From: Chitinophagales bacterium
GTDB taxonomy: Bacteria; Bacteroidota; Bacteroidia; Chitinophagales; Saprospiraceae
NCBI GenBank assembly: GCA_013298845.1
Contig: JAAFJN010000042.1
Span: 1-41,153, forward strand
DNA length: 41,153 nucleotides
Reading direction: 5' to 3'
In this document: piece by piece, positions 4,966 through 34,610 of the stretch
How positions within the stretch are numbered: position 1 is the first letter of the stretch
Layout of the letters: each line of letters begins with the position of its first letter
Translations under genes and position numbers: made by a program
The notes under the pieces: model-generated
What the model was told of the DNA's origin: nothing
Databases searched by the model: none
The model's input: only the letters and a program-made list of their open reading frames with translations

Positions 4966-5036
4966 GAGAGATGAGTTAGGAGTGATGAGTTTTTTTAGTG
5001 ATGAGTTAGGAGTGATGAGAGATGAGTTTTTTTAAC
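4966..5036. repeat. GAGTGATGA-type simple repeat tract
   Basis: Imperfect repetitions of GATGAGTTAGGAGTGATGAG are separated by T runs. It resembles the other short-unit arrays in this window (11178 and 34420) and is non-coding. Confidence 0.6.
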
Positions 5037-5135
5037 TTCTGCTATCTGCTATCATACATCATCAATCATATATCAAAAAATCACGATGTTGAGCGATAGC
5101 CGAAACAACGGCCCAACCCACAAAATACGCTAAAA
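5034..5135. repeat. Interspersed AT-rich repeat, copy 1
   Basis: This is one of four clear copies (also 5656-5728, 6931-7008 and 10930-11038) that start with AACTTCTGCTATC. They continue through ATCATACATCATCAATCA and end with a CCCACAAAA motif. Copies 1 and 4 also carry TGTTGAGCGATAGCCGAAAC in the middle. Confidence 0.75.
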
Positions 5136-5146
5136 ATACGTACCAC

Positions 5147-5331
5147 ATCTATCATCCTGTAACCGCCGATCTTCAGTCGGCGGCCATCGTGCCTGCTCTT
5201 TTGCATCTATCATGCTGACAAACATCACATCGCCGCTGCGCGATAAGATGTGATGTTTGTCAGCATGATAGATGTGATAGTGGGTCGCATTCCAGCCCCC
5301 AGATGAATCAGGGGGTTACAGGATGTTAGAT
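5147..5331. repeat. Nested palindromic repeat block with a perfect 28-bp hairpin
   Basis: Outer arms 5147-5164 and 5314-5331 are inverted copies with one mismatch (core CATCCTGTAACC). Just inside the left arm is a 7-bp hairpin, CCGCCGA with TCGGCGG (5163-5183). Just inside the right arm is a CCCCC/GGGGG hairpin (5296-5315). In the centre, 5204-5231 and 5247-5274 form a perfect 28-base-pair stem with a 15-base loop. There is no reading frame. It looks like two REP-like modules in opposite orientation around a larger palindrome. Confidence 0.75.
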
Positions 5332-5342
5332 GTTTTTGGTGC

Positions 5343-5402
5343 TTTTTTTGCAAAAAACTTCAAAAATCAAAAATCGTACATCGGAATTCTTATATCAAAA
5401 AA
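5343..5402. repeat. Interspersed repeat, copy 1 of 2
   Basis: TTTTTTGCAAAAAACTTC is followed by a run ending in CATCGGAATTCTTATATC. The same block, slightly diverged, occurs at 10842-10902 on the same strand. Confidence 0.65.
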
Positions 5403-5430
5403 ACGCAGATTGTTTCACACGAAAATGATT

Positions 5431-5528
5431 GGACACGGATTGAACACGGATTTTCACAGATTTTTTGTTGCTTCGGAAAAGTCCAAAATCCGTATAAATC
5501 CGTGTCTAATCCGTGTAAATCCGTGTCC
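5431..5528. repeat. Inverted repeat of AATCCGTGT units
   Basis: GGACACGGATTGAACACGGA at the left and several AATCCGTGT units plus AATCCGTGTCC at the right form an imperfect long palindrome. It has no coding signal. Confidence 0.6.
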
Positions 5529-5585
5529 CTTGCATTATTTGGTACGGGTACTTACAGAGCCAATGTCTTTGGCCAGAAATCTGTA

Positions 5586-5655
5586 CCGCTCCGAGATGTC
5601 ATCCACTCCGTACCTCCGGGATGCACATCTCGCCGCTGGACGCGCTACGACGGGC
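5586..5655. repeat. GAGATGTCATCC hairpin repeat, copy 1 of 3
   Basis: A conserved block of about 65-70 bases, also at 5979-6045 and 11092-11160. GAGATGTCATCC can pair with GGATGCACATCTC with a one-base bulge, and a conserved CGCCGCTG-ACGCGC tail follows. Confidence 0.75.
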
Positions 5656-5728
5656 AAAACTTCTGCTATCTGATATCATATATCATCAATCATATATCAA
5701 AAAACCACGGCCCAGTCCACAAAATAAC
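5656..5728. repeat. Interspersed AT-rich repeat, copy 2
   Basis: This is the same family as 5034-5135 but lacks the TTGAGCGATAGCCGAAAC module. It follows a GAGATGTCATCC hairpin copy directly and precedes MITE copy B. Confidence 0.7.
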
Positions 5729-5742
5729 CATCAAAAACGTTA

Positions 5743-5910
5743 TGTGGCTTTGTCATTCAGAAGGGATCTATTGGCGTAGGATTTTGCATAAAATACCACA
5801 GGCAGCGTGCGTACTTAAAGCACATGACGGTTGTTTTATCACGCTTTTCTTTCCGAACTTTTTGCCCGATATTGTAAACCCGTAGATTCCTTCTGAATGA
5901 CAAAGCCACA
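5743..5910. repeat. MITE-like element, copy B, flanked by TA
   Basis: This 168-base element has 28-base terminal inverted repeats (5743-5770 and 5883-5910) with one mismatch and TA on both sides (5741-5742 and 5911-5912). It is the partner of 69-234. The TA flanks would fit a TA-targeting transposase of the IS630/Tc1-mariner type. Because CGTTA/TAACG also continues the inverted repeat for three more bases, the TA could instead be part of a longer terminus. Confidence 0.72.
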
Positions 5911-5978
5911 TAACGGTTTTGATGTTTTTTGGGTGATTTTGGCCGCTTTTTCGGACAAATATTCGGTCTAAGGTTATT

Positions 5979-6045
5979 CTGCTCTGAGATGTCATCCAAT
6001 CCGTTCCTCCGGGATGTACATCTCGCCGCTGTACGCGCGATGGGC
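5979..6045. repeat. GAGATGTCATCC hairpin repeat, copy 2 of 3
   Basis: This is the same conserved block as 5586-5655. A further small hairpin (GCTTCAAA with TTTGAAGC, 6044-6067) follows between this repeat and the stop of the minus-strand gene at 6083. That hairpin has no T run and so is not a convincing terminator. Confidence 0.75.
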
Positions 6046-6082
6046 TTCAAAAATGGGCCTTTGAAGCAAAATGCGCAGTCTA

Positions 6083-10678: not shown

Positions 10679-10929
10679 CGTGTATTTATACTGAGCGTCG
10701 CCAGATTTTGTGCACCGCCACGGGGGAACGCGTCCCACATTTTCAGGCACAAGACCTGCTCAGTCGTAGTATATCTGCAAAAGTCTTGTTTTATTACCGA
10801 TCATCCTTCATCAACACCCCAAAAACTTTTGATTTCGAATGCCTTTTTTGCAAAAAACTTCAAAATCAAAAATCTTACATCGGGATTCTTACATCAAAAA
10901 ACAGATTAGGATAACCCACAAAATGCGCT

Positions 10930-11038
10930 AAAAAACTTCTGCTATCTGCTATCATACATCATCAATCATATATCAAAAAAACCACGGTGTTGAGCGATAG
11001 CCGAAACACACTGGCACAATCCACAAAATGCGCTAAAT
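10930..11038. repeat. Interspersed AT-rich repeat, copy 4
   Basis: This is the longest copy. It contains the TGTTGAGCGATAGCCGAAAC module and ends with CACAAAATGCGCTAAA, as copy 1 ends with a related sequence. Confidence 0.75.
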
Positions 11039-11091
11039 AAGCCGCCGTTTTCAGGTCTGCCGTGGGTAATGGCGCTCATATAGAATCCGAA

Positions 11092-11160
11092 CCGCTCTGA
11101 GATGTCATCCACTCCGTTCCTCCGGGATGCACATCTCGCCGCTGCACGCGCGATGGCGGG
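11092..11160. repeat. GAGATGTCATCC hairpin repeat, copy 3 of 3
   Basis: It is nearly identical to 5979-6045 through the bulged stem and the CGCCGCTG-ACGCGCGATGG tail. Confidence 0.75.
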
Positions 11161-11177
11161 CAAAAAACGCTTCGTTT

Positions 11178-11246
11178 TTCACTCTACACCTTTCACTCTT
11201 CACTTTTCACTCTTCGTTTTTCACTCTTCACTCTTCACTCTTCACT
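11178..11246. repeat. TTCACTC heptamer array
   Basis: TTCACTC units, with some TTTCACT variants, repeat about nine times and end just before the promoter of the hybrid sensor. The same unit makes up the array at 34525-34605. Confidence 0.8.
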
Positions 11247-11256
11247 AAAAAAAGTC

Positions 11257-11264
11257 TAAGTTTG
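11257..11264 (+). promoter_or_regulatory. -7 promoter box (TAAGTTTG)
   Basis: This is an exact match to TAnnTTTG, 23 bases before the TTG start of the hybrid sensor. The -33 position falls inside the TTCACTC array and shows no TTTG. Confidence 0.5.
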
Positions 11265-11287: not shown

Positions 11288-14200
11288 TTGAAAAATTCAA
11301 TATTTTTGCTCATATTCAGCAGTTTTGTGCTCGCGCTGCCCGCACAAAAATTACCGCAGTGCCAACTGCTCACCACCGCAGACGGCTTGTCGCAGGGCAT
11401 GATATTCGACGTACTGCAAAGCCGCGACGGGTTTATCTGGCTGGCCACCAACGATGGTTTAAATTGTTACGATGGCAGCCGTTTTGAGGTCTTTACCCCC
11501 GATCCTTTTAACCCCTTTTCGATTAGCAACAGCGAAATTAACCGACTATTTGAGGACCACAACGGCCTGATTTGGGCCAGTACTGCCACGCAATTGGAGG
11601 TTTTTGACCCAAAAAACAAACGTTTTTACCACGTTTTTCACAACGGACAACCGGTGTTTAGTTCGAACCACAATAGTTTTGAACAAACACCCGACGGTAC
11701 CATCTGGCTCACCGATGATTATTACCTGTGGAAAATCAACCTTTCGCCCGGCGATTTGGAAAAAGCGGCGGCGACGGGTTCGGCCAATGTTGCGCCGGTT
11801 TGTGAACATGTATTGTTGCAGGATGCCGCCGGTCCGGCCAACGGACAGGAGCCTTTGCGGTGCGCAAAAGTGCTGTTTAGCCGCCAGCAAAAATTACTGC
11901 TGGGTACCAACCACGGTTTGTATCGCCTCGATCGGGAAACCGGCAAATTGGCCCCCGAATACCTCATTCCGGCGATTGAATTGCGGGGACTGGCCGAAAA
12001 CAAAGCGGGCCAAATTGTGCTCATGGGCCGCCTGCCGTCCAAGTGCCGGTTGTGGGTGTGCATCTCGGCCACGGGCGTGCAGCAGGTGGAAGATTGCCCG
12101 TTGATCAATTACCCACGCAACGTTTTTTCTTTTGATGAAGCGGATTATTTGTGGACGTACCGCGGTGGAATGATCCAAAAATGGCGGGTTTCGGCCTTTT
12201 TTAACCGCGAAAAACCAGAACTGGAAATCAGCGGCGAAGTGGCCTTGCTGAAAGATGAACAGGGCGGTTATTGCACCCGGTTTTTATTTGACAAAAGTGG
12301 GGTCGGCTGGATTGGCACCAATGGTTTTGGGGTGATTAAAATGAACAAAAACACTTCCAAATTTAAAACGGCCCTGCCCAATATTACCCAACGGCTTATC
12401 CTGGAAGCGCCCGACGGCGGTTTTTACAGCCTGGAATCGCCGCAGGTAAAATACCGCTCGATTGCCTTTGACCAACCCGGCCCGAATACGGACTTTTTTG
12501 GGCGTTTTCACCCCACGGATTACAGTTCGGTGGGGCGGCTGGCGGCATGTTTCGACCGGGCGGGCAACGGTTGGTCGTTGAGCCGCTCCGATTCCTTTTT
12601 GTACCGCATGGATGCCGTTACCAAAGTGCAAACGGCGTTTCCGTGGCGGGGTTTTGGGTTGTTGTGCACCCGATATGGGCAGTTGTTGAGCCTCGAAACA
12701 ACGGGGTTGCGCCAATTTGATCCCCAAAGTCAAACCACCGCCGTTTTTGCATTTGACCAACCCCAAAAACGGCTGCTCGAAAATTCCCATTTCCTCTACG
12801 AAGACGCGGCGGGGGTGATTTGGATCATGGGCATGCAGGGACTGATTCGGGCAACGCCGGACCAGGGACGGTACCGGTTTACGTTTTTTCGCAACGAACC
12901 CAGCGACCGTTTTTCACTCAGCAGCAATATCGTGCAAAGTGTCGCCGATGACCCGCTGGACCCGCACTTGTACCTTTGGGTGGGGACAAAAGGGGGCGGT
13001 TTGAACCGTTTGGACAAAAAAACGGGCCAGTTCCGGCAGTATAAAACGGAGCAGGGACTACCGGACAATGTGGTGTACGGGGTGTTGGCGCCCAACCGGC
13101 CTTTGGGCAGCACGGCTCCGGGTTATATTTGGTTAAGTACCAACAAGGGGCTTTGTCGTTTCGATGTACGGGCCGAAACCACCAAAAACTTCACCGTGGC
13201 GGATGGTTTGCAGGAAAATGAGTTCAACAACGCCAGTTACCTGAAAACCCGGAATGGTACGTTGATTTTTGGCGGGGTAAAGGGCCTGACGGTGTTTCAC
13301 CCCGATAGTTTGCGGTTTAATAAGGTATTGCCCCAAACCCGCATCGTTGGTTTGCAGGTGAATAATAAAAAATACGACATTGCCGGCCGCTCATCCGTAG
13401 TGTTGGCCCATTACCAAAACTTGTTGACCTTCGATTTTGCGGCGCTTGAATTTACCAATCCGGCCCAAAACCAGTACCGGTATCAGTTGGTGGGCGTGGA
13501 CAAAAACTGGGTGGATTTGGGCAATAAAAACAGCATTCAATTTGCCAATTTGGCCCCGGGAACCTACATTTTTATGGTCTTGGGCAGCAATAACGACGGG
13601 TTGTGGAGCGAGCAACCCGCCCAGTTGCAGTTTACGATTCGGCCGCCGTGGTGGGCTTCGTGGTGGGCTTACCTGGTGTATTTGGCGTTGGTAGCCACGG
13701 CGATTTGGGCGTATTACCAATATTTGCTGCGCCAGCGAATCTCCGAACAGGAGAAACTGCGCTTGCGGGAATTGGCCGATTTTAAAAGCCGATTTTTCAC
13801 CAATATCACCCACGAATTCCGGACGCCATTGACCGTTATGTTGGGTGTGGGTGCGCAATTGGCGCAGGCGGAAACCGACGAACCCAAACTGAATAAACTG
13901 GACTTGATTAAACGCAGCGGCGAAAATCTGTTGCGGCTGGTGAACCAAATTTTGGATTTGGCCAAATTGGAATCCGATGCGCTGAACATGCACTACGTTC
14001 AGGGCGATATTTTGACGTTTATTAAATACATCGCCGAAAGTTTGCACTCCCTCGCCAATGCCCAAAACTTGCTCTTGCGCGTAGAAAGCACCGAAAGCAC
14101 CCTCGTGATGGACTACGATCCCGAACGTTTTTTGCAAATTATCCATAACCTGTTGTCGAACGCAATCAAGTTCACGCCATCGGGTGGGAAGGTTTTGGTG

Positions 14201-15526
14201 CAGGTGGCGGCCAAAGATGCGTGGCTACACGTGGCGGTTAAGGATTCGGGCGCGGGTATTCCGCCGGAGGAACTGCCCCATTTGTTTGACCGATTTTTTC
14301 AGGCGCGCAATCAGGCGTACGCGAACGCGGGCGGAACCGGCATTGGTTTATCGCTGACGCGTGAACTGGTAAAAGCAATGGGCGGCGAGATTTCGGTGGA
14401 AAGCACCGTGGGCGCGGGAACCACTTTTTTGGTCAAATTACCCATCACGAATCGGGCGGATTTGGAGGAAAAAGTGTCTCTGGAGCGCATTCCGATGGGG
14501 CGGGAACGGTGGTCGGCAGCGGGAACGGTGGTCCCGGCCGGAACGGAACCGGATGGTTATTCAATTTTGATTATTGAGGATAATCCCGATGTCGTGGAGT
14601 ATTTGGAATCTTGTTGGGGCGACCCTCGTGGTCGCCCAATCGTGCCCGACCCAGGATCCAAGGGCGACCGTCGGGGCGACCCTCGTGGTCGCCCAATCGT
14701 GCCCGACCCAGGATCTATGGACCGTCCTAATTCACCAATTTCGGATAATTCGCAGGGTGATGGGATGGTGGATTATCCGAAGTTGGGCGACCACAAGGGT
14801 CGCCCCAACGGTCGCCCCGACGGGCGCCCCAATATATATTTCGCGTACAACGGCCAGGCCGGCATCGAAAAAGCACTCGAAACGATCCCCGATCTCATCA
14901 TCAGTGACGTCATGATGCCCATTAAAGACGGCTTTGAAGTGGTAGAAACCCTCAAAAACGACGAACGCACCAGCCATATTCCCATCATTCTGCTCACCGC
15001 CAAAGCCGACGTCCAGAGCCGTTTGGCGGGACTGCGCCGGGGCGCGGATGCCTATTTGTCCAAACCTTTTCACCAGGAAGAACTGCTGGTAACCGTGGAC
15101 AACCTGCTGGAAACGCGCAAAAAATTGCAGTTAAAATACCAGCAAACCATCTTCACCACCGAAGCACCCGTGACGCCCGAAAGGCCGTTAGCAAAGGAAA
15201 ACACCGACGTAGAGGACGTGTTTTTGCAAAATATCCGCCTCCTGATCGAAGAAAACTACACGCAGGAAGATTTTGGCTTGCCACAATTGTGCCTGAAAGC
15301 GGGGATGAGTCGTTCGCAATTATTCCGCAAAATGAAAGCCCTCACCGATATTGCGCCGTCCGATTTAATTCGGTCGCACCGCCTGAACCGGGCCAAAGCC
15401 CTGCTCGAAAGCGGCACCGTCAACGTCGCGGAGGCCGCGTGGCGGGTGGGTTTTAAAGACCCTTCTTATTTTTCAAAATTGTACCAGGAGGAATTTGGGG
15501 TAGCACCGAGTGCGGTGAAGCGTTAA
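11288..15526 (+). CDS. Hybrid two-component system sensor-regulator (HTCS) with palindrome-derived insert in its receiver domain
   Basis: This 1412-residue one-protein signalling system starts at TTG 11288, which gives a signal peptide ending LPAQ. An in-frame stop lies 40 bases upstream with no ATG between. Two-component propeller repeats (about 30-700) and a Y_Y_Y domain (about 711-785) form the periplasmic sensor, followed by a membrane helix (about 788-815). The kinase has its phospho-acceptor H842 (THEFRTP) and an ATPase domain (NLLSNAIKF, later GTGIGLSL). The receiver has E1097-D1098 and phospho-acceptor D1207, with an AraC DNA-binding domain at about 1312-1412. Residues 1110-1182 (14615-14833) are a foreign, Gly/Pro/Arg/Asp-rich insert between receiver helix 1 and strand 2. 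Other HTCS proteins often control glycan-use genes, but no SusCD pair is nearby, so the signal is unknown. Confidence 0.95.
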   Translation: MKNSIFLLIFSSFVLALPAQKLPQCQLLTTADGLSQGMIFDVLQSRDGFIWLATNDGLNCYDGSRFEVFTPDPFNPFSISNSEINRLFEDHNGLIWASTATQLEVFDPKNKRFYHVFHNGQPVFSSNHNSFEQTPDGTIWLTDDYYLWKINLSPGDLEKAAATGSANVAPVCEHVLLQDAAGPANGQEPLRCAKVLFSRQQKLLLGTNHGLYRLDRETGKLAPEYLIPAIELRGLAENKAGQIVLMGRLPSKCRLWVCISATGVQQVEDCPLINYPRNVFSFDEADYLWTYRGGMIQKWRVSAFFNREKPELEISGEVALLKDEQGGYCTRFLFDKSGVGWIGTNGFGVIKMNKNTSKFKTALPNITQRLILEAPDGGFYSLESPQVKYRSIAFDQPGPNTDFFGRFHPTDYSSVGRLAACFDRAGNGWSLSRSDSFLYRMDAVTKVQTAFPWRGFGLLCTRYGQLLSLETTGLRQFDPQSQTTAVFAFDQPQKRLLENSHFLYEDAAGVIWIMGMQGLIRATPDQGRYRFTFFRNEPSDRFSLSSNIVQSVADDPLDPHLYLWVGTKGGGLNRLDKKTGQFRQYKTEQGLPDNVVYGVLAPNRPLGSTAPGYIWLSTNKGLCRFDVRAETTKNFTVADGLQENEFNNASYLKTRNGTLIFGGVKGLTVFHPDSLRFNKVLPQTRIVGLQVNNKKYDIAGRSSVVLAHYQNLLTFDFAALEFTNPAQNQYRYQLVGVDKNWVDLGNKNSIQFANLAPGTYIFMVLGSNNDGLWSEQPAQLQFTIRPPWWASWWAYLVYLALVATAIWAYYQYLLRQRISEQEKLRLRELADFKSRFFTNITHEFRTPLTVMLGVGAQLAQAETDEPKLNKLDLIKRSGENLLRLVNQILDLAKLESDALNMHYVQGDILTFIKYIAESLHSLANAQNLLLRVESTESTLVMDYDPERFLQIIHNLLSNAIKFTPSGGKVLVQVAAKDAWLHVAVKDSGAGIPPEELPHLFDRFFQARNQAYANAGGTGIGLSLTRELVKAMGGEISVESTVGAGTTFLVKLPITNRADLEEKVSLERIPMGRERWSAAGTVVPAGTEPDGYSILIIEDNPDVVEYLESCWGDPRGRPIVPDPGSKGDRRGDPRGRPIVPDPGSMDRPNSPISDNSQGDGMVDYPKLGDHKGRPNGRPDGRPNIYFAYNGQAGIEKALETIPDLIISDVMMPIKDGFEVVETLKNDERTSHIPIILLTAKADVQSRLAGLRRGADAYLSKPFHQEELLVTVDNLLETRKKLQLKYQQTIFTTEAPVTPERPLAKENTDVEDVFLQNIRLLIEENYTQEDFGLPQLCLKAGMSRSQLFRKMKALTDIAPSDLIRSHRLNRAKALLESGTVNVAEAAWRVGFKDPSYFSKLYQEEFGVAPSAVKR
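14615..14833. repeat. REP-like palindrome cluster inserted in frame in the HTCS receiver
   Basis: A 219-base block (73 codons) holds two 43-base direct repeats 57 bases apart (14616-14658 and 14673-14715). Each contains the hairpin GGGCGACC-ctcgt-GGTCGCCC. A third hairpin of the same arms lies in 14785-14805, and a 15-base imperfect palindrome pairs 14735-14749 with 14772-14786. The sequence encodes GDPRGRPIVPDPGS twice. It has no counterpart in ordinary receiver domains, where strand 2 follows helix 1 after a few residues. Confidence 0.85.
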
Positions 15527-15653
15527 AACACTCGTTTTGCGGTTGTTGAGGGGAATGACCAATTTTCCAAAAATTCACATTGGAATGAAAAAAATTTTAG
15601 TGTTCGACTAAAAAAAACAAAAACGAGCAAATAATTGATTGTCAATTTTTTAC

Positions 15654-15695
15654 AAAAAAGGTAATTTCGTTACACGCAACGAAATTACCTTTTTT
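15654..15695 (+). terminator. Terminator after the HTCS gene
   Basis: A perfect 18-base-pair stem, with arms containing GGTAATTTCGTT and AACGAAATTACC, has a six-base loop and A/T ends, so it can act in both directions. It stands 128 bases after the stop. A close relative is at 17464. Confidence 0.8.
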
Positions 15696-15821: not shown

Positions 15822-17444
15822 ATGCGATTCAACGATCAAAAAACAATTGCTCAGCGCACGGCCCTTGCCACCTTATTACTGTTTATCACCTTTTTGGCCA
15901 CCAATGCACAGGTGCAATGGCCAGTGATGGACCCTTCCAATATTGCTCAATTTAAACCCGCCAAACAAAGCAGTATTTTTGACGACAAACACGCTAACCG
16001 GGCCGTGGACGGAAATACCGACGGCGATTTGGGCCATAATTCGGTAACGCACACCCAAAACAACGAAAATTCATGGTGGGAAGTGGATTTGTTGTACCTG
16101 TACGATATTTCTGACATTACCATTTATAACCGGATGGATTACACCGAACGGTTGGACAAATTTTCCGTTGCCGTTTCCGAAACACCTTTTGCCAATAACC
16201 AAAGTGGCCAACTGGTCGCCGACAAACAACCGACGTTTAAAGGATCAAGAACCTTTAGCAACGTGAACAAAAAAGGCCGCTACGTGCGCATTTTTTTGAA
16301 CAAAAACGAATATTTGAGTCTGGCGGAAGTTGTTGTAAAAGGCAAAATGTCGAAAATTAAAAACGACAAAGGCGAGATGGTGGACCAAACGGTGCAGTCG
16401 GGTTCTAATTTGGCGTTGGGAAAACCAGCCCGACAATCGAGCATATACAACTCCAATGTGGCCAACCACGCCAACGACGGCGATACCAACGGCAATATCA
16501 ACAATGGTTCGCTCGCACATACCCAAAACGACAACCAGGCTTATTGGGAAGTAGATTTGGGAAAAAATTTCCTGATTGATGAAGTGAAAATTTTTAATCG
16601 GACCGATTGCTGCCAAGATCGCCTCGACAATTTTAATCTTTGGGTTACCGAACAACCCAAAGATCAGATCACCAGCCGTTTGACCGCGTTTTTGGAAGGA
16701 GAAAAAAAGTTTGATAACGGAGTAGTCAGCAAGTCATTTCCAGCGGCAAACCCCTTCGTTGGCCGCTACGTTCGGGTAGATTTGAACGGGCATAATAATT
16801 TTAATATCGCCGAAGTACAAGTGTTTGGCCGCGAGGTAGGTAACATTGTCATTGGCGATTCGGAAACTGAAATTTTGTACAAGTTAAACACATTTGAAAA
16901 CGCTTCGGGCACTCCGATTGAGGTAAAAATCGGTTTGATTAGTTCAGTGTCGCAAGGGGTGGAGTTTAGCCGGAAAGTAAGCGAAGAACACCAGGCGCAC
17001 TGGGCTTTATCCGTCGAGGCCAAAGCATCTGCCGATTATCTTTTTTTAAAGGCCGAATTAGACACGAAATTTGATACCGGTGTTGAAACAACAACCAGCA
17101 CCGAAGATGGTAATTCGACCAAAGTGGAAGAGTCTAAAGAAGAAACAACGGATTATACCCAAGAAATAGCGGCCAATACCGTACGTTATGATTTTAGTAA
17201 ATTTGTTTTTAACCAAAGACCGGTAACATACCTGTTTAACGGGCAAACATATTCTTGGTATTCGATTAATGAAGCGGCTAAACCCGTTGGCAATCACGCC
17301 ATATTTATTCTTACTAAAGCGCAAAACGACGATTTGAAGAAAAAAATGAAAGAACTAAAAATCACCATCCCGGCGGATAATTGGGTACCAGAAACACTGT
17401 ACAATGACTTGATGGAAATCATGAAAACCTACCGGATTAACTAA
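15822..17444 (+). CDS. Secreted two-fucolectin-domain protein with aerolysin-like C-terminal region (candidate pore-forming toxin)
   Basis: This 540-residue protein has a signal peptide of about 30 residues ending NAQ. Two tachylectin-4/fucolectin (F5/8 type C-like) domains follow, at about 35-175 and 194-340. Each has AxQSS, an A-DG-T/N-DG-substituent, a WxVDL strand and NR-D---RLD-F; the second has the hallmark NRTDCCQDRLDNF. Such domains bind fucose or related glycans. Residues about 345-500 are beta-rich and amphipathic. They include SVSQGVEF, a W-SVEAKASADYLFLKAEL segment and a Thr/Ser/Glu-rich stretch (about 415-447) that could be the membrane-inserting hairpin of an aerolysin-type toxin. 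The pore assignment is by pattern only. No T9SS domain is visible. The gene stands alone between two related terminators. It could instead be a non-toxic adhesin. Confidence 0.8.
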   Translation: MRFNDQKTIAQRTALATLLLFITFLATNAQVQWPVMDPSNIAQFKPAKQSSIFDDKHANRAVDGNTDGDLGHNSVTHTQNNENSWWEVDLLYLYDISDITIYNRMDYTERLDKFSVAVSETPFANNQSGQLVADKQPTFKGSRTFSNVNKKGRYVRIFLNKNEYLSLAEVVVKGKMSKIKNDKGEMVDQTVQSGSNLALGKPARQSSIYNSNVANHANDGDTNGNINNGSLAHTQNDNQAYWEVDLGKNFLIDEVKIFNRTDCCQDRLDNFNLWVTEQPKDQITSRLTAFLEGEKKFDNGVVSKSFPAANPFVGRYVRVDLNGHNNFNIAEVQVFGREVGNIVIGDSETEILYKLNTFENASGTPIEVKIGLISSVSQGVEFSRKVSEEHQAHWALSVEAKASADYLFLKAELDTKFDTGVETTTSTEDGNSTKVEESKEETTDYTQEIAANTVRYDFSKFVFNQRPVTYLFNGQTYSWYSINEAAKPVGNHAIFILTKAQNDDLKKKMKELKITIPADNWVPETLYNDLMEIMKTYRIN

Positions 17445-17463: not shown

Positions 17464-17503
17464 CGGGTAGTTTCGTTCCATGCAACGAAATTACCCGTTT
17501 TTG
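17464..17503 (+). terminator. Terminator after the lectin gene
   Basis: A 14-base-pair stem (CGGGTAGTTTCGTT with AACGAAATTACCCG, one G-T pair) has a six-base loop and is followed by six T residues. It lies 20 bases after the stop. The core is the same as in the terminator at 15654. Confidence 0.85.
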
Positions 17504-17573
17504 AAACGGAATTACCCGGTGTTTGGGGGCATCGGCCTGCACCTTTGACCTACTTAATCCACCCGCCCCCCAA

Positions 17574-18101: not shown

Positions 18102-21100
18102 ATGATTTTTGCAACGTACCCATTTAATGCGCCACTTCATTCCGCAACGAAGCGGTTATTTTATATTTTCGGGCCATTGTGCCTGTTTTTGGCCGCTCAG
18201 GCACTACAAGCGCAACCTTGTACGGCCAGTATCTCGGGCGAATTGGTCATCTGTCCCGGTGGCAGTCGCGTCCTGACGGCCTCGGCGGCGACGAACTACC
18301 TCTGGAGTAACGGGGCCATGACCAACACCATTACGGTCACCACCGCCGGTACCTACACCGTCACTACCACCAACGCCGTTGGTTGTACCGCTACGGCGTC
18401 GGCCACCACCCGCATCCTTTCCGCCGGAACAATTTCGGCACCCGTACCACAGGGGTTTCAGGGTTATCCGGTTTGTTTTGGTTCCACCCTGCAACTGAGC
18501 AGTACGGTTCCCGGCGGCACCTGGAGTACATTTTCTTCTTTTCCGGCGGTCTCCGTGAACCCGGTTACCGGCTTGGCCACCGGCATAGCGGCCAGTTTTG
18601 GAACCGATACCTCTTCGGTTGGGTATCGGGTATCGGCAACCGGCTGTACGGCCTCCGCATTCACCATGTTAGAATCGAGGGGCCTGAATCCCGGGACCAT
18701 CAGTGGTGGCAATACCAACCTTTGTTATAATTCTTTCGGCGTACAAACTACCCAACTCAGTACGAATGCGTCCGGCGGCGTTTGGGCCAGCAGCAATCCT
18801 GCCATTACCGTCAATTCATCCGGTTTGGTGTCAACAACCGGCCCCGGAACCACCACCATCTCGTACACGGTTACCTTTGAGGGATGCGCGAATAGTGCCA
18901 CCACTCAGGTTACCTGGAATGCGCGGCCCAATACTTTAGTTACGGCCCCTCCATTTGTCTGTCCGGGTGAGACATTTGCCATATCCGTCCCCAACGCCGG
19001 GCTGGGTACCACCTATAATTGGGCGGGCACCGGAATTACCAATGTCAATTCAAACGCGACTACCATCACGCTGCCGCCCTCTATCCCTGCTGGAACTCAA
19101 AGTTATACGGTGACCATTACACCGGCTAACGGCTGCGGCGCCATCGGTTTCGGCAACGTTTCCGTCGGGACGGTACCCAATGCAACCATTGCGGCTACGC
19201 CCAATCCCGTTTGCATTGGGCTAATGCTCAATCTTTCGGTACCAGCCGCGGCCTCCACCACCTATGCGTGGTCGGGGAACGGCCTGAATAGCACAACGGG
19301 CAGCATGGTAACCGCCACCCCAACTATATTGGGCACACAGACTTATACCGTTACAGCCACGGGCAATGCTTTTTTGGGCGGCTGCTCGAATACCAGTAGC
19401 GCCAATGTGGAGGTCACGTTTTGTTGTCCAACCATAACATTCACCATGCCCAATGTGACGCAACCCACCTGCACTACGGCGGGCACCATTGTGGTAAATG
19501 CCTTCAGCACTGGTCCTTTGCAATACAGCGTGGACAACGGTGCCAATTGGCAAACCAGTTCGACCTTTAGCGGCCTCGCGCCCGGTAATTACACCATCAA
19601 AGCGCGGCTGGCGTCCGCTCCAACTTGTGAAGCGAGTTATGGCAGTAATCCGGTAGTGCTGAATTCGCCCTTTACGACCTCTACCACAACGGATACCTGG
19701 ACGGGTTGTGTCTCCACCAACTGGTCCACACCGGGCAACTGGGCGGATGGTTCGGTGCCAACGGCCTCCAATCACGCAATCATCCCGGATGTGGCCAACG
19801 ACCCCGTCATCATGGCTGGAACGGCCGCCGTGGCTCAATCCACCGAGGTACAGGGAGGTGCAGTATTGACACTTGCTTCTACCGGTAGTTTGACCTTAAA
19901 TGGCACCTTGTCAAATTTTGGTACAGTTACCAATTCGGGCACCATCTCCATTGGCAACACCATTTTTGCGGGTCAGGACAACATTTTTAACTTTGGAAAC
20001 TTTACCAATACTTCCACGGGGATTATTTCGGTTGACCGAGCGTCGAATGGAATCTGGCATGTAGTTGGTAGTTTTCAAAATAGTGGTATCATTAATATTG
20101 GTTCGGTTGCCACTACCGGGACGGGGATTTTAAGTTATGCCCCCTTCACCAATCACGCCGGCGCACAAATCAACATTGACCGGACCGACAGCGGGATTGT
20201 CAGTACCAGTGCCTTTACCAATGCCGGTTTAATTCGCATGGGCGAAAACGGGCCATTGTCGGGGAGTGGCCTCGTTAATACCGGCGGATCGGCGGGTATA
20301 TTCAACAACGATGCCGGTGCTGAAATCAGTATCAAACAAACCGCCGTTAATGGTTTGCTAAATGACCAAAATGCTGTTTTTAACAACAATTCCTGCGCAA
20401 TACTCACCATTTTTGACAACCTGAACAACGCCGGAACATTGACCAATACCGGTTTATGGACGGTGAATACCGCGCAAGCGCACACCAATTCGGGTTTGAC
20501 CAACAACGGCATTATTGCCTACCCGGTGGGCAACCCCATTCCGAATGTAACCAACAACGAGATTGTTATTGCACCCACGACGGCCAATGGCTGCGACGTC
20601 ATCAGCCCGGCTTTTGGGTTAGGTAGCCCCGTAAATTTCACAATTCTCGGCGTATTCACCGATGCGGCAGCCACCAATTCGGCGGGTACTTTCACCGTAG
20701 CCAACAACACGTTTACCCCCACCGCGATTTTGCCGGAAGGCGTTCGGACGTATTATGTACAAATTATGGACGGCGGTTGTACCCGAATTGTTCCCTGGCA
20801 ACTGACGACCCAAAACTGTTGCGCCGTTCCGCAGGCCCTTTGCCAAACGGCAACGATTCCTTTGGTCGGAAATAGTGCAACACTGACCGTTGCAGCGGTG
20901 AATAACGGCAGTACGGCGGCATGTGGGTTGCAAAGCATCAGCGTAGCGCCAAATGCCTTTAATTGCAGCCACGTTGGTACACCACAAACGGTGACACTCA
21001 CCGTAACGGATGTAAATAACGCCAGTTCTACGTGTCAAACAACGGTTACTGTTGCCGATCAAACCGCGCCAACGATTACTTGCCCGGCCAATACAACCGT

Positions 21101-24100
21101 GGCTGCCGGTGCCAATTGTTCCGCAACCCTGGCTTCTTACGTAGCCAGCGCAACCGCCAACGATAACTGCACGGCCAGCCCAAACAAAACGCAAAGCCCC
21201 GCCGCCGGTACCACCATCACTGGCGCGCAAGTGGTGACCCTCACCGCTACCGATGCCGCTAGTAATACCGCGACTTGTTCGTTCACTGTAACCGTAGCCG
21301 ATCAAACCGCGCCCACCATCACCTGTCCGGCCAACGCCACGGTAAATGCCAACGCCAATTGCCAAAGCACCATCGGAACTTACGGCGCGGCGACGGTGAG
21401 TGATAATTGTAACCCAAGCCCAAGTGTGACTCAAAACCCCGCGGCTTCGACTTTATTGACGGGTCATAACAGCACGCAAACCGTGACTTTAACCGCCAAT
21501 GACGGCAACGGCAACACCGCAACGTGTGCTTTAACCGTTACTTTAAAAGACGTAACCGCGCCCACCATCACCTGCCCGGCCAACGCCACGGTAAATGCCA
21601 ACGCCAATTGCCAAAGCACCATCGGAACTTACGGCGCGGCGACGGTGAGTGATAATTGTAACCCAAGCCCAAGTGTGGTGCAAAGTCCTGCGGCTTCGAC
21701 TTTATTAACGGGTCATAACAGCGCCCAAACGGTGACTTTAACCGCCAATGACGGCAACGGCAACACCGCGACTTGTTCGTTGGTAGTTACCTTAAAAGAC
21801 GTTACCGCGCCCACCATCACCTGCCCGGCCAACGCCACGGTAAATGCCAACGCCAATTGCCAAAGCACCATCGGAACTTACGGCGCGGCGACGGTGAGTG
21901 ACAATTGTAACCCAAGCCCAGCGGTTGTGCAAAGCCCCGTTGCTTCGACTTTATTGACGGGTCACAACAGCACGCAAACGGTTGTTTTAACCGCCAACGA
22001 CGGCAACGGCAATACCGCAACGTGTGCTTTAACCGTTACCTTAAAAGACGTTACCGCACCCACCATCACCTGTCCGGCCAACGCCACGGTAAATGCCAAT
22101 GCCAATTGCCAAAGCGCCATCGGAACTTACGGCGCGGCGACGGTGAGTGATAATTGTAACCCAAGCCCAACGGTGGTGCAAAGCCCCGCGGCTTCGACTT
22201 TATTGACGGGGCATAACAGCACGCAAACCGTGACATTAACGGCCAACGACGGCAACGGCAATACCGCAACTTGTTCTTTGACCGTTACTTTAAAAGACGT
22301 AACCGCACCCACCATCACTTGCCCGGCCAACGCCACGGTAAATGCCAACGCCAGTTGCCAAAGCACCATCGGAACGTACGCGGCAGCAACGGTAAGCGAT
22401 AATTGTAACCCAAGCCCAACGGTGGTGCAAAGCCCCGCTGCTTCGACTTTATTGACAGGTCATAACAGCGCTCAAACAGTCGTTTTAACGGCCAATGACG
22501 GCAACGGCAATACCGCAACTTGTTCGTTAACCGTTACTTTAAAAGACGTTACCGCGCCCACCATCACCTGTCCGGCCAACGCCACGGTAAATGCCAACGC
22601 CAGTTGCCAAAGCACCATCGGAACTTACGGCGCAGCGACGGTAAGTGACAATTGTAACCCAAGCCCAAGTGTGGTGCAAAGCCCCGTTGCTTCGACCTTG
22701 TTGACGGGCCATAACAGCACCCAAACGGTGACTTTAACCGCCAATGACGGCAACGGCAATACCGCAACTTGTGCTTTGACCGTTACCTTAAAAGACGTAA
22801 CCGCACCCACCATCACCTGCCTGGCCAACGCCACGGTAAATGCCAACGCCAATTGCCAAAGCACCATTGGAACTTACGGCGCGGCGACGGTGAGTGACAA
22901 TTGTAACCCAAGCCCAACGGTTGTGCAAAGCCCCGCGGCTTCGACTTTATTAACGGGCCAGAATAGCGTCCAAACAGTGGTTTTAACGGCCAATGACGGC
23001 AACGGCAACACCGCAACTTGTTCTTTAACCGTTACCTTAAAAGACGTAACCGCGCCCACCATCACCTGTCCGGCCAACGCCACGGTAAATGCCAACGCCA
23101 GTTGCCAAAGCACCATCGGAACTTACGGCGCGGCGACGGTGAGTGATAATTGTAACCCAAGTCCAAGTGTGGTGCAAAGCCCCGCGGCTTCGACTTTATT
23201 AACGGGTCATAACAGCACGCAAACCGTGACATTAACGGTCAACGACGGCAACGGCAACACCGCAACTTGTTCTTTGACCGTTACCTTAAAAGACGTAACC
23301 GCACCCACGATCACCTGTCCGGCCAACGCCACGGTAAATGCCAACGCCAGTTGCCAAAGCGCCATCGGAACTTACGGCGCGGCGACGGTAAGTGACAATT
23401 GTAACCCAAGCCCAAGTGTGACCCAAAACCCCGTTGCTTCGACCTTATTAACGGGCCAGAATAGCGTCCAAACAGTGGTGTTAACGGCCAACGATGGCAA
23501 CGGCAATACCGCAACTTGTGCTTTAACCGTTACCTTGAGAGATATTGCACCGCCGACGTTAATTTGTAAAAATTTCCTGGTGAGTTTGAATACTTTGGGT
23601 ACCGCCACGCTAAATGCGGTTAATGTATTCCAAAGCGGCACCGATAACTGCGGAACCGTAAGTCCAATTTCCGTAACGCCCAATGCTTTCAATTGCAGCA
23701 ATATTGGCGCTACCACGGTGACTTTGGTCGCCAGCGATGGCAACGGCAATACGGCAACCTGTACGGCATTGGTCAAAATTGAAGATATTATCGCACCAAC
23801 CATGATTTGCCAAAACGTTACGGTGGCCCTGAACGCCAGCGGACAAGCGACGGTAACGCCCGCTCAGGTGAACAACGGCTCGACGGATAATTGTGGTATT
23901 GCTACCCTTTCGTTGAGTCGCACGACCTTCAACTGCGCTGATCTGGGTCAAAACCTCGTTACCCTCACCGGTACCGACCAATCGGGCAATAAAGGCACTT
24001 GTACGGCGACCGTTACAGTGCAGGATCTATTGGTGCCCGTTGCCAAATGCAAAAATGCCACGCTAAACCTCGGTGCAAATGGTACCGTGGTCGTGCCGCC

Positions 24101-25079
24101 CGCTTCGATCAACAACAACAGTACCGACAACTGCGCCATGAGTTTTACCGTTGTTCCGGCGACCCTTACCTGCGCAAACATTGGCAACAACCTCGTTACC
24201 CTCCGGGTCACCGATGGTGCCAATAACTTGTCCACTTGTACAGCCATTGTTACCCTCAAAGACGCCACCGCACCCACAGCATTGTGCAAAAACGCCACGC
24301 TTTTCCTGAATGCCACCGGTTCGGCAACCCTCAGTGTTGCCCAAGTCAACAATGGCTCTTCGGACAATTGTGGGATTAGCAGCCTTAGTTTGAGCAAAAC
24401 CTTGTTTAATTGCGCCGATTTAAGCGGACCAACCTGGCCCGTGTTCCTGACCTTAAAAGATGCGGCCAATAATACGAGTACCTGCACGGCGTACGTCACC
24501 ATTAAGGACAATATTGCGCCAACGGCCATTTGCGAAAATACCACGGTGGAATTGGGATCCAACGGAAAAGCCGTTGTTTATGGCGCCGATTTGGCGGAAG
24601 GTAGTTATGATAACTGCGCGGTTTGGTCATACAGCCCGGTGGCTAAAGTGTACACAACGGCCAATATCGGGACGAATAACCTGACCATTACCGTACGCGA
24701 TTGGAGCAATAACGCTGCTACTTGTGTATCGCAAGTGACGGTATTGCCTTACGGCGCCGGATTAGAAAACCCCGTCGAAGACCGCGATCTGGATTCCTTT
24801 TCTCCGCTCCGTCAGGATGATTTATTGGTGCATTTATACCCAAACCCAACGTTTGACCGGGTAAATCTGGCGTTTGAACTGGAAGCAGATCAGGCGTATC
24901 AGGTCACCATCTGGGATGTTACCGGGCGTTTGCGCCTCGAACAATCGGCACAAGGTAAAGCGGGAGAAAATCAAATCCTGATGGATCTCCGGGACTTACC
25001 CGCCGGTATGTACGTGGTGATTTTTGAATCGGCCGGACAACAGATACAGAAGAAATTAGTCAAAGACCGAGACGAATAA
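18102..25079 (+). CDS. Giant surface protein with nine near-identical HYR-like repeats and T9SS C-terminal domain
   Basis: This 2325-residue protein has a signal peptide ending about residue 38 (ALQAQ). PKD/SprB-like Ig modules fill roughly 38-520. A beta-helix-like region beginning WTGCVSTNWSTPGNWADG covers about 530-810. HYR-type modules run from about 905, including nine 83-residue tandem repeats at 1070-1816. Five more divergent modules of the same general plan (IAPT--C-N-TV-L) reach about 2220. A T9SS type A sorting domain starts near 2240 (LYPNPTFDRVNL). Paired cysteines recur in every module. HYR and SprB-like proteins are known as extracellular adhesins, and SprB itself supports gliding in flavobacteria, so adhesion is the likely role here. 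It shares a transcript with the NTF2-like gene and ends at a bidirectional terminator. Confidence 0.9.
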   Translation: MIFATYPFNAPLHSATKRLFYIFGPLCLFLAAQALQAQPCTASISGELVICPGGSRVLTASAATNYLWSNGAMTNTITVTTAGTYTVTTTNAVGCTATASATTRILSAGTISAPVPQGFQGYPVCFGSTLQLSSTVPGGTWSTFSSFPAVSVNPVTGLATGIAASFGTDTSSVGYRVSATGCTASAFTMLESRGLNPGTISGGNTNLCYNSFGVQTTQLSTNASGGVWASSNPAITVNSSGLVSTTGPGTTTISYTVTFEGCANSATTQVTWNARPNTLVTAPPFVCPGETFAISVPNAGLGTTYNWAGTGITNVNSNATTITLPPSIPAGTQSYTVTITPANGCGAIGFGNVSVGTVPNATIAATPNPVCIGLMLNLSVPAAASTTYAWSGNGLNSTTGSMVTATPTILGTQTYTVTATGNAFLGGCSNTSSANVEVTFCCPTITFTMPNVTQPTCTTAGTIVVNAFSTGPLQYSVDNGANWQTSSTFSGLAPGNYTIKARLASAPTCEASYGSNPVVLNSPFTTSTTTDTWTGCVSTNWSTPGNWADGSVPTASNHAIIPDVANDPVIMAGTAAVAQSTEVQGGAVLTLASTGSLTLNGTLSNFGTVTNSGTISIGNTIFAGQDNIFNFGNFTNTSTGIISVDRASNGIWHVVGSFQNSGIINIGSVATTGTGILSYAPFTNHAGAQINIDRTDSGIVSTSAFTNAGLIRMGENGPLSGSGLVNTGGSAGIFNNDAGAEISIKQTAVNGLLNDQNAVFNNNSCAILTIFDNLNNAGTLTNTGLWTVNTAQAHTNSGLTNNGIIAYPVGNPIPNVTNNEIVIAPTTANGCDVISPAFGLGSPVNFTILGVFTDAAATNSAGTFTVANNTFTPTAILPEGVRTYYVQIMDGGCTRIVPWQLTTQNCCAVPQALCQTATIPLVGNSATLTVAAVNNGSTAACGLQSISVAPNAFNCSHVGTPQTVTLTVTDVNNASSTCQTTVTVADQTAPTITCPANTTVAAGANCSATLASYVASATANDNCTASPNKTQSPAAGTTITGAQVVTLTATDAASNTATCSFTVTVADQTAPTITCPANATVNANANCQSTIGTYGAATVSDNCNPSPSVTQNPAASTLLTGHNSTQTVTLTANDGNGNTATCALTVTLKDVTAPTITCPANATVNANANCQSTIGTYGAATVSDNCNPSPSVVQSPAASTLLTGHNSAQTVTLTANDGNGNTATCSLVVTLKDVTAPTITCPANATVNANANCQSTIGTYGAATVSDNCNPSPAVVQSPVASTLLTGHNSTQTVVLTANDGNGNTATCALTVTLKDVTAPTITCPANATVNANANCQSAIGTYGAATVSDNCNPSPTVVQSPAASTLLTGHNSTQTVTLTANDGNGNTATCSLTVTLKDVTAPTITCPANATVNANASCQSTIGTYAAATVSDNCNPSPTVVQSPAASTLLTGHNSAQTVVLTANDGNGNTATCSLTVTLKDVTAPTITCPANATVNANASCQSTIGTYGAATVSDNCNPSPSVVQSPVASTLLTGHNSTQTVTLTANDGNGNTATCALTVTLKDVTAPTITCLANATVNANANCQSTIGTYGAATVSDNCNPSPTVVQSPAASTLLTGQNSVQTVVLTANDGNGNTATCSLTVTLKDVTAPTITCPANATVNANASCQSTIGTYGAATVSDNCNPSPSVVQSPAASTLLTGHNSTQTVTLTVNDGNGNTATCSLTVTLKDVTAPTITCPANATVNANASCQSAIGTYGAATVSDNCNPSPSVTQNPVASTLLTGQNSVQTVVLTANDGNGNTATCALTVTLRDIAPPTLICKNFLVSLNTLGTATLNAVNVFQSGTDNCGTVSPISVTPNAFNCSNIGATTVTLVASDGNGNTATCTALVKIEDIIAPTMICQNVTVALNASGQATVTPAQVNNGSTDNCGIATLSLSRTTFNCADLGQNLVTLTGTDQSGNKGTCTATVTVQDLLVPVAKCKNATLNLGANGTVVVPPASINNNSTDNCAMSFTVVPATLTCANIGNNLVTLRVTDGANNLSTCTAIVTLKDATAPTALCKNATLFLNATGSATLSVAQVNNGSSDNCGISSLSLSKTLFNCADLSGPTWPVFLTLKDAANNTSTCTAYVTIKDNIAPTAICENTTVELGSNGKAVVYGADLAEGSYDNCAVWSYSPVAKVYTTANIGTNNLTITVRDWSNNAATCVSQVTVLPYGAGLENPVEDRDLDSFSPLRQDDLLVHLYPNPTFDRVNLAFELEADQAYQVTIWDVTGRLRLEQSAQGKAGENQILMDLRDLPAGMYVVIFESAGQQIQKKLVKDRDE
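21309..23549 (+). repeat. Nine tandem 249-bp repeats inside the giant surface protein gene
   Basis: The unit is exactly 249 bases (83 codons) and begins at the APTITCP motif. Copies differ at a few shared sites, such as SVTQN/SVVQS/AVVQS/TVVQS, GHNST/GHNSA/GQNSV, NANANC/NANASC and ALTV/SLTV. These variants are mixed between copies. One copy has CLANA in place of CPANA. Confidence 0.95.
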
Positions 25080-34411: not shown

Positions 34412-34419
34412 TTCTTTTA

Positions 34420-34605
34420 GTGAATAGTGAATAGTGAATAGTGAATAGTGAATAGTGAATAGTGAATAGTTAAGAGTGAATAGTCTGCCCGTCGTAGAGT
34501 ATTTTTCTCTACCCAAGTAAATTTTTCACTATTCATTTTTCACTATTCACTCTTAACTATTCACTCTTCACTATTCACTCTTCACTCTTCACTCTTCACT
34601 CTTCC
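34420..34605. repeat. Opposed heptamer arrays (GTGAATA and TTCACTA/TTCACTC) between convergent genes
   Basis: Seven exact GTGAATA units (34420-34468) plus variants to 34484 face about eleven TTCACTA/TTCACTC units (34525-34605). The two arrays are near inverted copies with a 40-base spacer, so the transcript could fold into one long imperfect hairpin and end transcription from both sides. Confidence 0.85.
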
Positions 34606-34610
34606 CTAAA

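Follow-up and report, generated by a model that had tools for sequence, protein, structure and literature searches.

How does a response-regulator receiver domain come to carry a long run of palindromic DNA, translated in frame, and what has become of the receiver? We examined this question in a 41,153-nt stretch of a Chitinophagales bacterium (GenBank assembly GCA_013298845.1, contig JAAFJN010000042.1, positions 1 to 41,153), hereafter called the window. The gene concerned occupies 11288..15526 on the + strand as 1412 open codons, with a TTG start according to the ORF tool. Pfam matches to its 1412-aa product fell in the order two-component propeller (Reg_prop), Y_Y_Y, HisKA, HATPase_c, receiver and AraC-type HTH. 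With all six domains in one chain, the protein is an HTCS; it has the same full domain order as the Bacteroidota HTCS proteins and differs from them by 67 extra receiver residues. By HTCS protein sequence, its nearest named relatives are Saprospiraceae MAGs. The receiver, as modelled with its loop included, spans 14549..15139 (+) and retains E1097/D1098, D1207, T1237 and K1259. A preliminary description of the locus had held that the kinase, D1207 and the AraC domain stay in frame, and the HATPase, the HTH and the invariant receiver residues are indeed kept with no stop or frameshift. A 15-nt direct repeat (GCGGGAACGGTGGTC) lies at 14500-14533 in the linker immediately N-terminal to the receiver.

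The inserted segment (14615..14833, +; residues 1110-1182) lies between alpha1 and beta2 of the receiver. The reading frame runs past EDNPDVVEYLESC, continues through 73 codons (14615-14833) and picks up again at IYFAYNGQAGIEKALE. REP unit 1 (14613..14637, +; exact hairpin 14617-14637) consists of the tag GTTG followed by the hairpin GGGCGACC-CTCGT-GGTCGCCC, and unit 2 (14670..14694, +; exact hairpin 14674-14694) carries the tag GTCG before the same GGGCGACC-CTCGT-GGTCGCCC. Unit 2 is within the second of two 51-nt direct copies (14613-14663 and 14670-14720, together 14613..14720, +), which share 94% identity and a 43-nt identical core and which we read as an in-frame tandem duplication. Unit 3 (14785..14809, - strand; exact hairpin 14785-14805) is reversed and reads GGGCGACC-ACAAG-GGTCGCCC then CAAC (tag GTTG); its orientation is that of the recognisable short inserts in relatives considered below. 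Between units 2 and 3 there is a separate 52-nt hairpin, CCAATTTCGGATAAT / ATTATCCGAAGTTGG (14735..14786, +), in which 14735-14749 pairs with 14772-14786, and a genome search for it returned no second copy among the matches listed at E <= 0.01. A half-stem fragment, GGGCGACC then GTCG, is present at 14662..14673 (+), and the insert closes on its 3' side with two more, GGTCGCCC-CGAC and GGGCGCCC (14810..14829, -). The coordinates, the frame and the 57-nt repeat spacing given in the preliminary description were reproduced, with the copies extended to 51 nt. Its inventory of two repeat hairpins plus two palindromes is revised to three complete GGGCGACC-N5-GGTCGCCC hairpins and a fourth palindrome, along with fragments. 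Counted on either strand, GGTCGCCC occurs 10 times in the window, and 8 of these copies belong to the insert; shuffled sequences contain 2.11 on average (maximum 5 in 100 shuffles).

The RNA of 14605-14840 (+ strand) was computed to form a single long hairpin of -132.4 kcal/mol (z = -8.0), a value matched by 0 of 200 shuffles. The 21-nt hairpin core is stop-free in all 6 of 6 frames, which makes it easier for a REP to be translated, and the GTAG tag places a TAG in one frame. The insert as a whole has stop-free frames in 2 of 6, and its open frame is weak evidence alone, since an open frame is also seen in 24% of 2000 sequences drawn from a first-order Markov model of equal composition.

Comparison with homologues indicates a true insertion. 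The alpha1-beta2 interval comprises 8 residues in relatives and 75 in the window, and the EDN-to-GI span is 97 residues in the window instead of the usual 30, so that the net gain is 67 aa. About six native residues after the cysteine are absent from the window receiver. The 73 extra codons of the preliminary description are thus present in frame, but they replace these roughly six residues and do not all count as gain. That the long segment might be common to homologues was ruled out, as it was found in 0 of 25 aligned HTCS homologues (two have 7 extra residues there) in an alignment that omitted five hit groups with partial coverage.

The source of the inserted DNA was sought in the rest of the genome. 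Within its 6.37 Mb, the exact hairpin occurs 14 times, 3 in the insert and 11 elsewhere, and its reversed control 0 times; allowing up to 2 mismatches, the counts are 51 versus 3. The preliminary description had predicted further genomic copies of the palindrome unit, which the 11 outside hairpins provide, and had regarded such palindromes as usually intergenic, which is true of the source genome: 10 of the 11 outside copies lack 70 open codons on both sides. The sole copy that has them (C7:230, 1/11) belongs to an array of repeats at the end of a contig. The three window hairpins each have at least 239 open codons on each side. Across the genus the exact hairpin was found in 17 of 42 genomes, the source genome included.

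The bases 5' of the hairpin were tallied in 115 distinct copies from the source genome and its relatives, window and L191 copies included and oriented by the hairpin loop. G, T, A and G were present at the four positions in 106, 103, 94 and 98 copies, respectively. As GTAG itself precedes the hairpin in 72 of the 115, the element is a GTAG-tagged REP-like element, and the tag bias at all four positions sharpens the earlier label 'REP-like' to the GTAG-REP superfamily. The window's three copies are tagged GTTG, GTCG and GTTG rather than GTAG. According to PMC3733652, GTAG REPs are palindromes of 20-40 bp with a stem of 5-13 bp and a loop of 2-20 nt. The present stem of 8 bp and loop of 5 nt are inside these sizes, and the copies are dispersed and mostly intergenic, though their numbers are modest (14 strict, 51 relaxed). 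The likeness to GTAG REPs as outlined in that source includes the end GTAG tag, the short hairpin, the mostly intergenic location and the clustering. The differences from that outline are the host, here a Saprospiraceae-type genus, the fact that one receiver loop has inserts on about six branches (recognisably this REP on four), and the finding of no RAYT beside the present element in the loci examined.

Y1_Tnp matches were obtained in 13 of 13 genomes searched, 6 in the source genome and 52 in 12 relatives. The hairpin was present near 0 of 36 Y1-transposase loci (of the 58 matches) in flanks of about 1.5 kb. The arrangement of GTAG-REP systems, with a RAYT (Y1) transposase between copies of its REP, was thus not found for this element in the loci examined. 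One Y1 transposase gene (L346, G000:C29) stands between GTAG hairpins of another sequence (CGACGGGTT) on either side and is likely a REPtron; another Y1 locus (L348) is flanked by GTAA hairpins with one stem mismatch. The REPtron with a group 3 TnpA-REP in S. maltophilia, as sketched in PMC8266576, resembles the present element in its GTAG, its perfect 8-bp palindrome and its short loop, and differs in that the loop is 3 nt there versus 5 nt here and that no adjacent transposase was found here.

REPs within genes are not without precedent. Intragenic GTAG REPs are documented, some units in conserved genes (Di Nocera 2013, PMC3733652); in that paper, intragenic clusters encode 43 to 82 aa, and two Xanthomonas recB genes carry REPs at nearly matching positions. 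The Rickettsia palindromic elements, as they are portrayed there, are in-frame palindromes in protein genes that likely still function, a resemblance that makes them an analogue of the present insert by description; by the same description RPE-1 is longer than the present element, and RPE-4 and RPE-6 are grouped with CGTC repeats (PMC3733652). In the other genomes, 14 of the 101 exact copies examined (80 regions; 113 counted) have 70 open codons on both sides. Seven of these 14 are in genes with a Pfam match, the other seven in low-complexity or doubtful ORFs. The former comprise an exact copy in an open frame of an HTCS receiver (L191) and three proteins of G019: an exact in-frame copy in MnmE, where GRPQGSP directly precedes LLVVCNKMD within the GTPase domain (aligned to 3gee), a copy within the domain match of a DUF5682 protein, and two copies beyond the domain match of a PMT_2 protein. 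The remaining two are in PSCyt1/DUF2231 proteins (L342 and L343, in G041 and G033), one copy each at a similar position but in opposite orientation and beyond the domain matches. These two proteins are 75% identical over their length, and their genes are a possible second hotspot. At L053 (G016:C76) there are in-frame extra residues around SPSLSGRAGVGL just before the HATPase GTGIGL, and the DNA there (CCCTCTCTGTCGGGGAGGG) looks palindromic.

The window contains other repeats. The 2325-aa protein encoded at 18102-25079 bears HYR domains as well as a secretion tail; its nine repeats, spaced 249 nt, are 81-90% identical to reference copies. Arrays of 14-nt units (TTCACTATTCACTC type) are located at 11157-11263 and 34412-34610, and units face each other at 34416-34610. 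Related-looking 7-nt repeats are translated in HTCS linkers as SSFIIHHSSL (L041, L121) and SSFIAHHSSL (L079), and in MnmE of G019 they read HSSLFAHRSSL. Inverted repeats of 41 nt (80%; 15649-15689 / 17466-17506), each palindromic by eye, bracket a gene with an F5/F8 type C domain (15822-17444). Two related repeat blocks with inverted arms (43-293 and 5708-5945) are about 5.7 kb apart, a 28-nt perfect inverted repeat with a 15-nt loop is at 5204-5274, and other short repeats are at 5023-6052 and 10844-11165.

We explored whether the alpha1-beta2 loop has received insertions in other receivers. One receiver query was run against the 42 genomes of the genus, of which 29 yielded 95 matches in all, and the 94 loci other than the window were scanned. 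Of 78 parsed EDN-GI spans, among which the receiver pair of G030:C312 was counted more than once, 69 are 30 residues long, two are 29, six are 36-38 and one, the 50-residue span of L266, was misparsed, its loop being normal. All six spans of 36-38 residues have their extra residues at the alpha1-beta2 loop. Seventeen of the 94 loci were unparsed; their match lengths show no net insertion, except that G033:C661, at a contig end, stops short of the loop. The rest of the receiver is constant in the parsed rows, with 13 residues from NG to DxMMP in 94/94 and 64 from NG to KP in 90 measurable of 94. As the parse requires recognisable motifs in one frame, receivers wrecked by insertion elsewhere would escape it. 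Counting the genus, named and further loci together with the window, the carriers are 8 of 94 distinct receivers. The window gains 67 residues and seven other HTCS receivers gain 6-10 at exactly this loop: L084 10, L191 8, L042, L043, L079 and L357 (the same gene as L286) 7 each, and L047 6. When the search was widened to the family, with 398 genomes sampled from a larger group, 53 had a match; one further carrier was gained beyond the genus, L395 of G233 (+10), with a loop that reads like that of L084.

The origin of these inserts was assessed with a scoring matrix built from 116 REP copies, receiver-borne copies excluded. The scores for L191, the window, L079, L042 and L043 were 44.2, 43.8, 37.2, 23.6 and 16.8, respectively, against -11.5 for the best of 87 empty receivers and 0.4 for the best of 2000 shuffles. 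L047 scored -7.2, higher than all empty receivers yet inside the spread of the shuffled sequences (99% point -9.9); the score of L286 (G031) was -19.3. Given these values, neither L047 nor L286/L357 is safely REP-derived. The loop of L084 holds a different palindrome, CCCCTCTCC...GGAGAGGGG. By sequence, then, the short inserts comprise four that are recognisably REP, one marginal (L047), one unrecognisable (L286) and one other palindrome (L084). The recognisable short REP inserts share one orientation. These comparisons suggest that insertions have arrived at the alpha1-beta2 loop repeatedly and that the protein can tolerate them there. Intragenic REPs were already known, and what is new is a recurrent hotspot in a receiver loop; in open-licence PMC papers, the titles and abstracts among the matches listed did not mention REPs in receiver domains or from Saprospiraceae.

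We propose that the insert is a GTAG-tagged REP-like cluster which, after its arrival in the alpha1-beta2 loop, lengthened by steps divisible by three, and we consider this origin quite probable. The steps would have been the tandem duplication of 57 nt, a copy in reverse orientation and one more hairpin. Movement may have been by single-strand transposition of the Y1/RAYT type. Insertions that broke the frame or the fold would be lost, and alpha1-beta2, being opposite the phosphorylation face, would survive as a tolerant site.

The loop might instead be chosen as DNA, with the REP inserting beside the TAC/CTAC (GTAG on the opposite strand) of the conserved Tyr codon of HYxLDF. TAC forms the end of all seven short inserts at this Tyr, and in one TnpA-REP system the GTAG tetranucleotide steers the choice of cleavage site (PMC8266576). 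However, empty receivers have CTAC at this codon in only 8 of 85 cases and TAC in 38 of 85, and the TAC is also supplied by the REP tag itself. A GTAG/CTAC target site as the cause of the hotspot is thus unproven, and we regard it as possible but rather unlikely.

Whether the loop was invaded repeatedly was examined on a tree of 48 rows, the hand-picked nearer part of 92, with the loop excluded. In this careful tree, the eight carriers require six changes (gains or losses), the number adopted here; a quick tree of all 92 rows gave 7. The window groups with L357 (G031) with support 95/85, and L042 with L043. Joining the window with L042/L043 was rejected (p-AU 0.007), as was joining L047 with L084 (p-AU 0.0009), though some forks are weak and the placement of L191 is unsure. 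A recognisable REP is present on four of the six branches, namely those of the window, L042/L043, L079 and L191. The window may have inherited a short insert in common with G031 and then expanded it; the insert of G031 is too altered for recognition, which is why shared ancestry is put forward here only as an inference. The contig of a close orthologue (G033:C661, L108) starts exactly at the loop; this break would be consistent with a repeat at that point but is no evidence of one.

Repeated insertion could in principle be mimicked if a loop that already held an insert passed between HTCS paralogues by gene conversion or transfer. Carriers in G006:C289, G021:C8 and G022:C336 do have other HTCS receivers on the same contig, and five inserts are similar in peptide (D-x-E-G). 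Against this, the neighbouring paralogues on carrier contigs are empty (L245, L247, L289), the insert of L084 is a different palindrome, and at the base level the copies, whether exact, near-exact or decayed, are not alike. Spread by conversion or transfer is therefore an unlikely course of events, and we favor repeated landing of REP-like elements at the loop.

The alpha1-beta2 loop of a receiver sits away from its phosphorylation face. The structure of the window receiver was predicted by AlphaFold2 from its sequence and 57 relatives. The model (mean pLDDT 81.0, pTM 0.69) has the five strands and the helices of a receiver, in blocks of pLDDT 87-99, and the loop (model residues ~22-90) is unstructured with pLDDT 47-68. 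Response-regulator receivers make up the listed PDB matches; 3gl9, for one, has a TM score of 0.90 when normalised to the target and 0.57 when normalised to the query. With the acidic pair, the phospho-acceptor Asp, the Thr and the Lys kept and a (beta-alpha)5 fold predicted, the domain is a receiver. The preliminary description had suggested that the palindromes were accepted as a loop, and the predicted intact receiver with a disordered loop, together with the inserts at the same loop elsewhere, agrees with this. The most likely outcome, judging from the model, is a working or mildly altered receiver that carries a disordered loop.

It could be argued that the insertion disables or weakens the receiver, so that the gene is heading to a pseudogene whose frame is open because G+C-rich REPs rarely hold stops. 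The two open frames of the insert and the open Markov sequences noted above are in line with this, and the very stable RNA hairpin could impede expression. The retained invariant residues, HATPase and HTH and the uninterrupted frame speak against such decay, as does the receiver core, which is intact in the model. All eight loop inserts are multiples of three, though the parse demands that. A frame-breaking insert would make the match begin around query residue 33, which is seen solely in the window and at the contig end G033:C661. On balance, we find it improbable that the receiver is being lost, and a tolerated loop is preferred.

The REP-derived loop might even have been recruited, such that repeated REP capture at one loop alters HTCS signalling via the peptide or the long mRNA hairpin; we hold this to be highly doubtful. 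If it were true, an mRNA hairpin between the kinase and the DNA-binding parts could pause translation or invite RNase III, and the pausing or the cleavage could uncouple sensing from output. Finally, an assembly artefact is extremely improbable: some hairpin copies are near contig ends (e.g. G022:C219:11 and C333:46) and the G033:C661 contig begins right at the loop, but the insert is inside a 41-kb contig with long open frames on either side of every hairpin, and same-loop inserts are seen in independent genomes.

Intragenic REPs have so far been scattered curiosities of unclear effect. The HTCS receivers of this genus offer a series at one position: empty, with a single exact copy, with a single mutated copy, with an unrecognisable insert, with a different palindrome, and with an expanded insert of 67 aa. 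This series bears on whether the loop is chosen as a DNA target or by protein tolerance and on whether receivers signal despite large insertions, and it lets one ask how mobile DNA turns into protein sequence.
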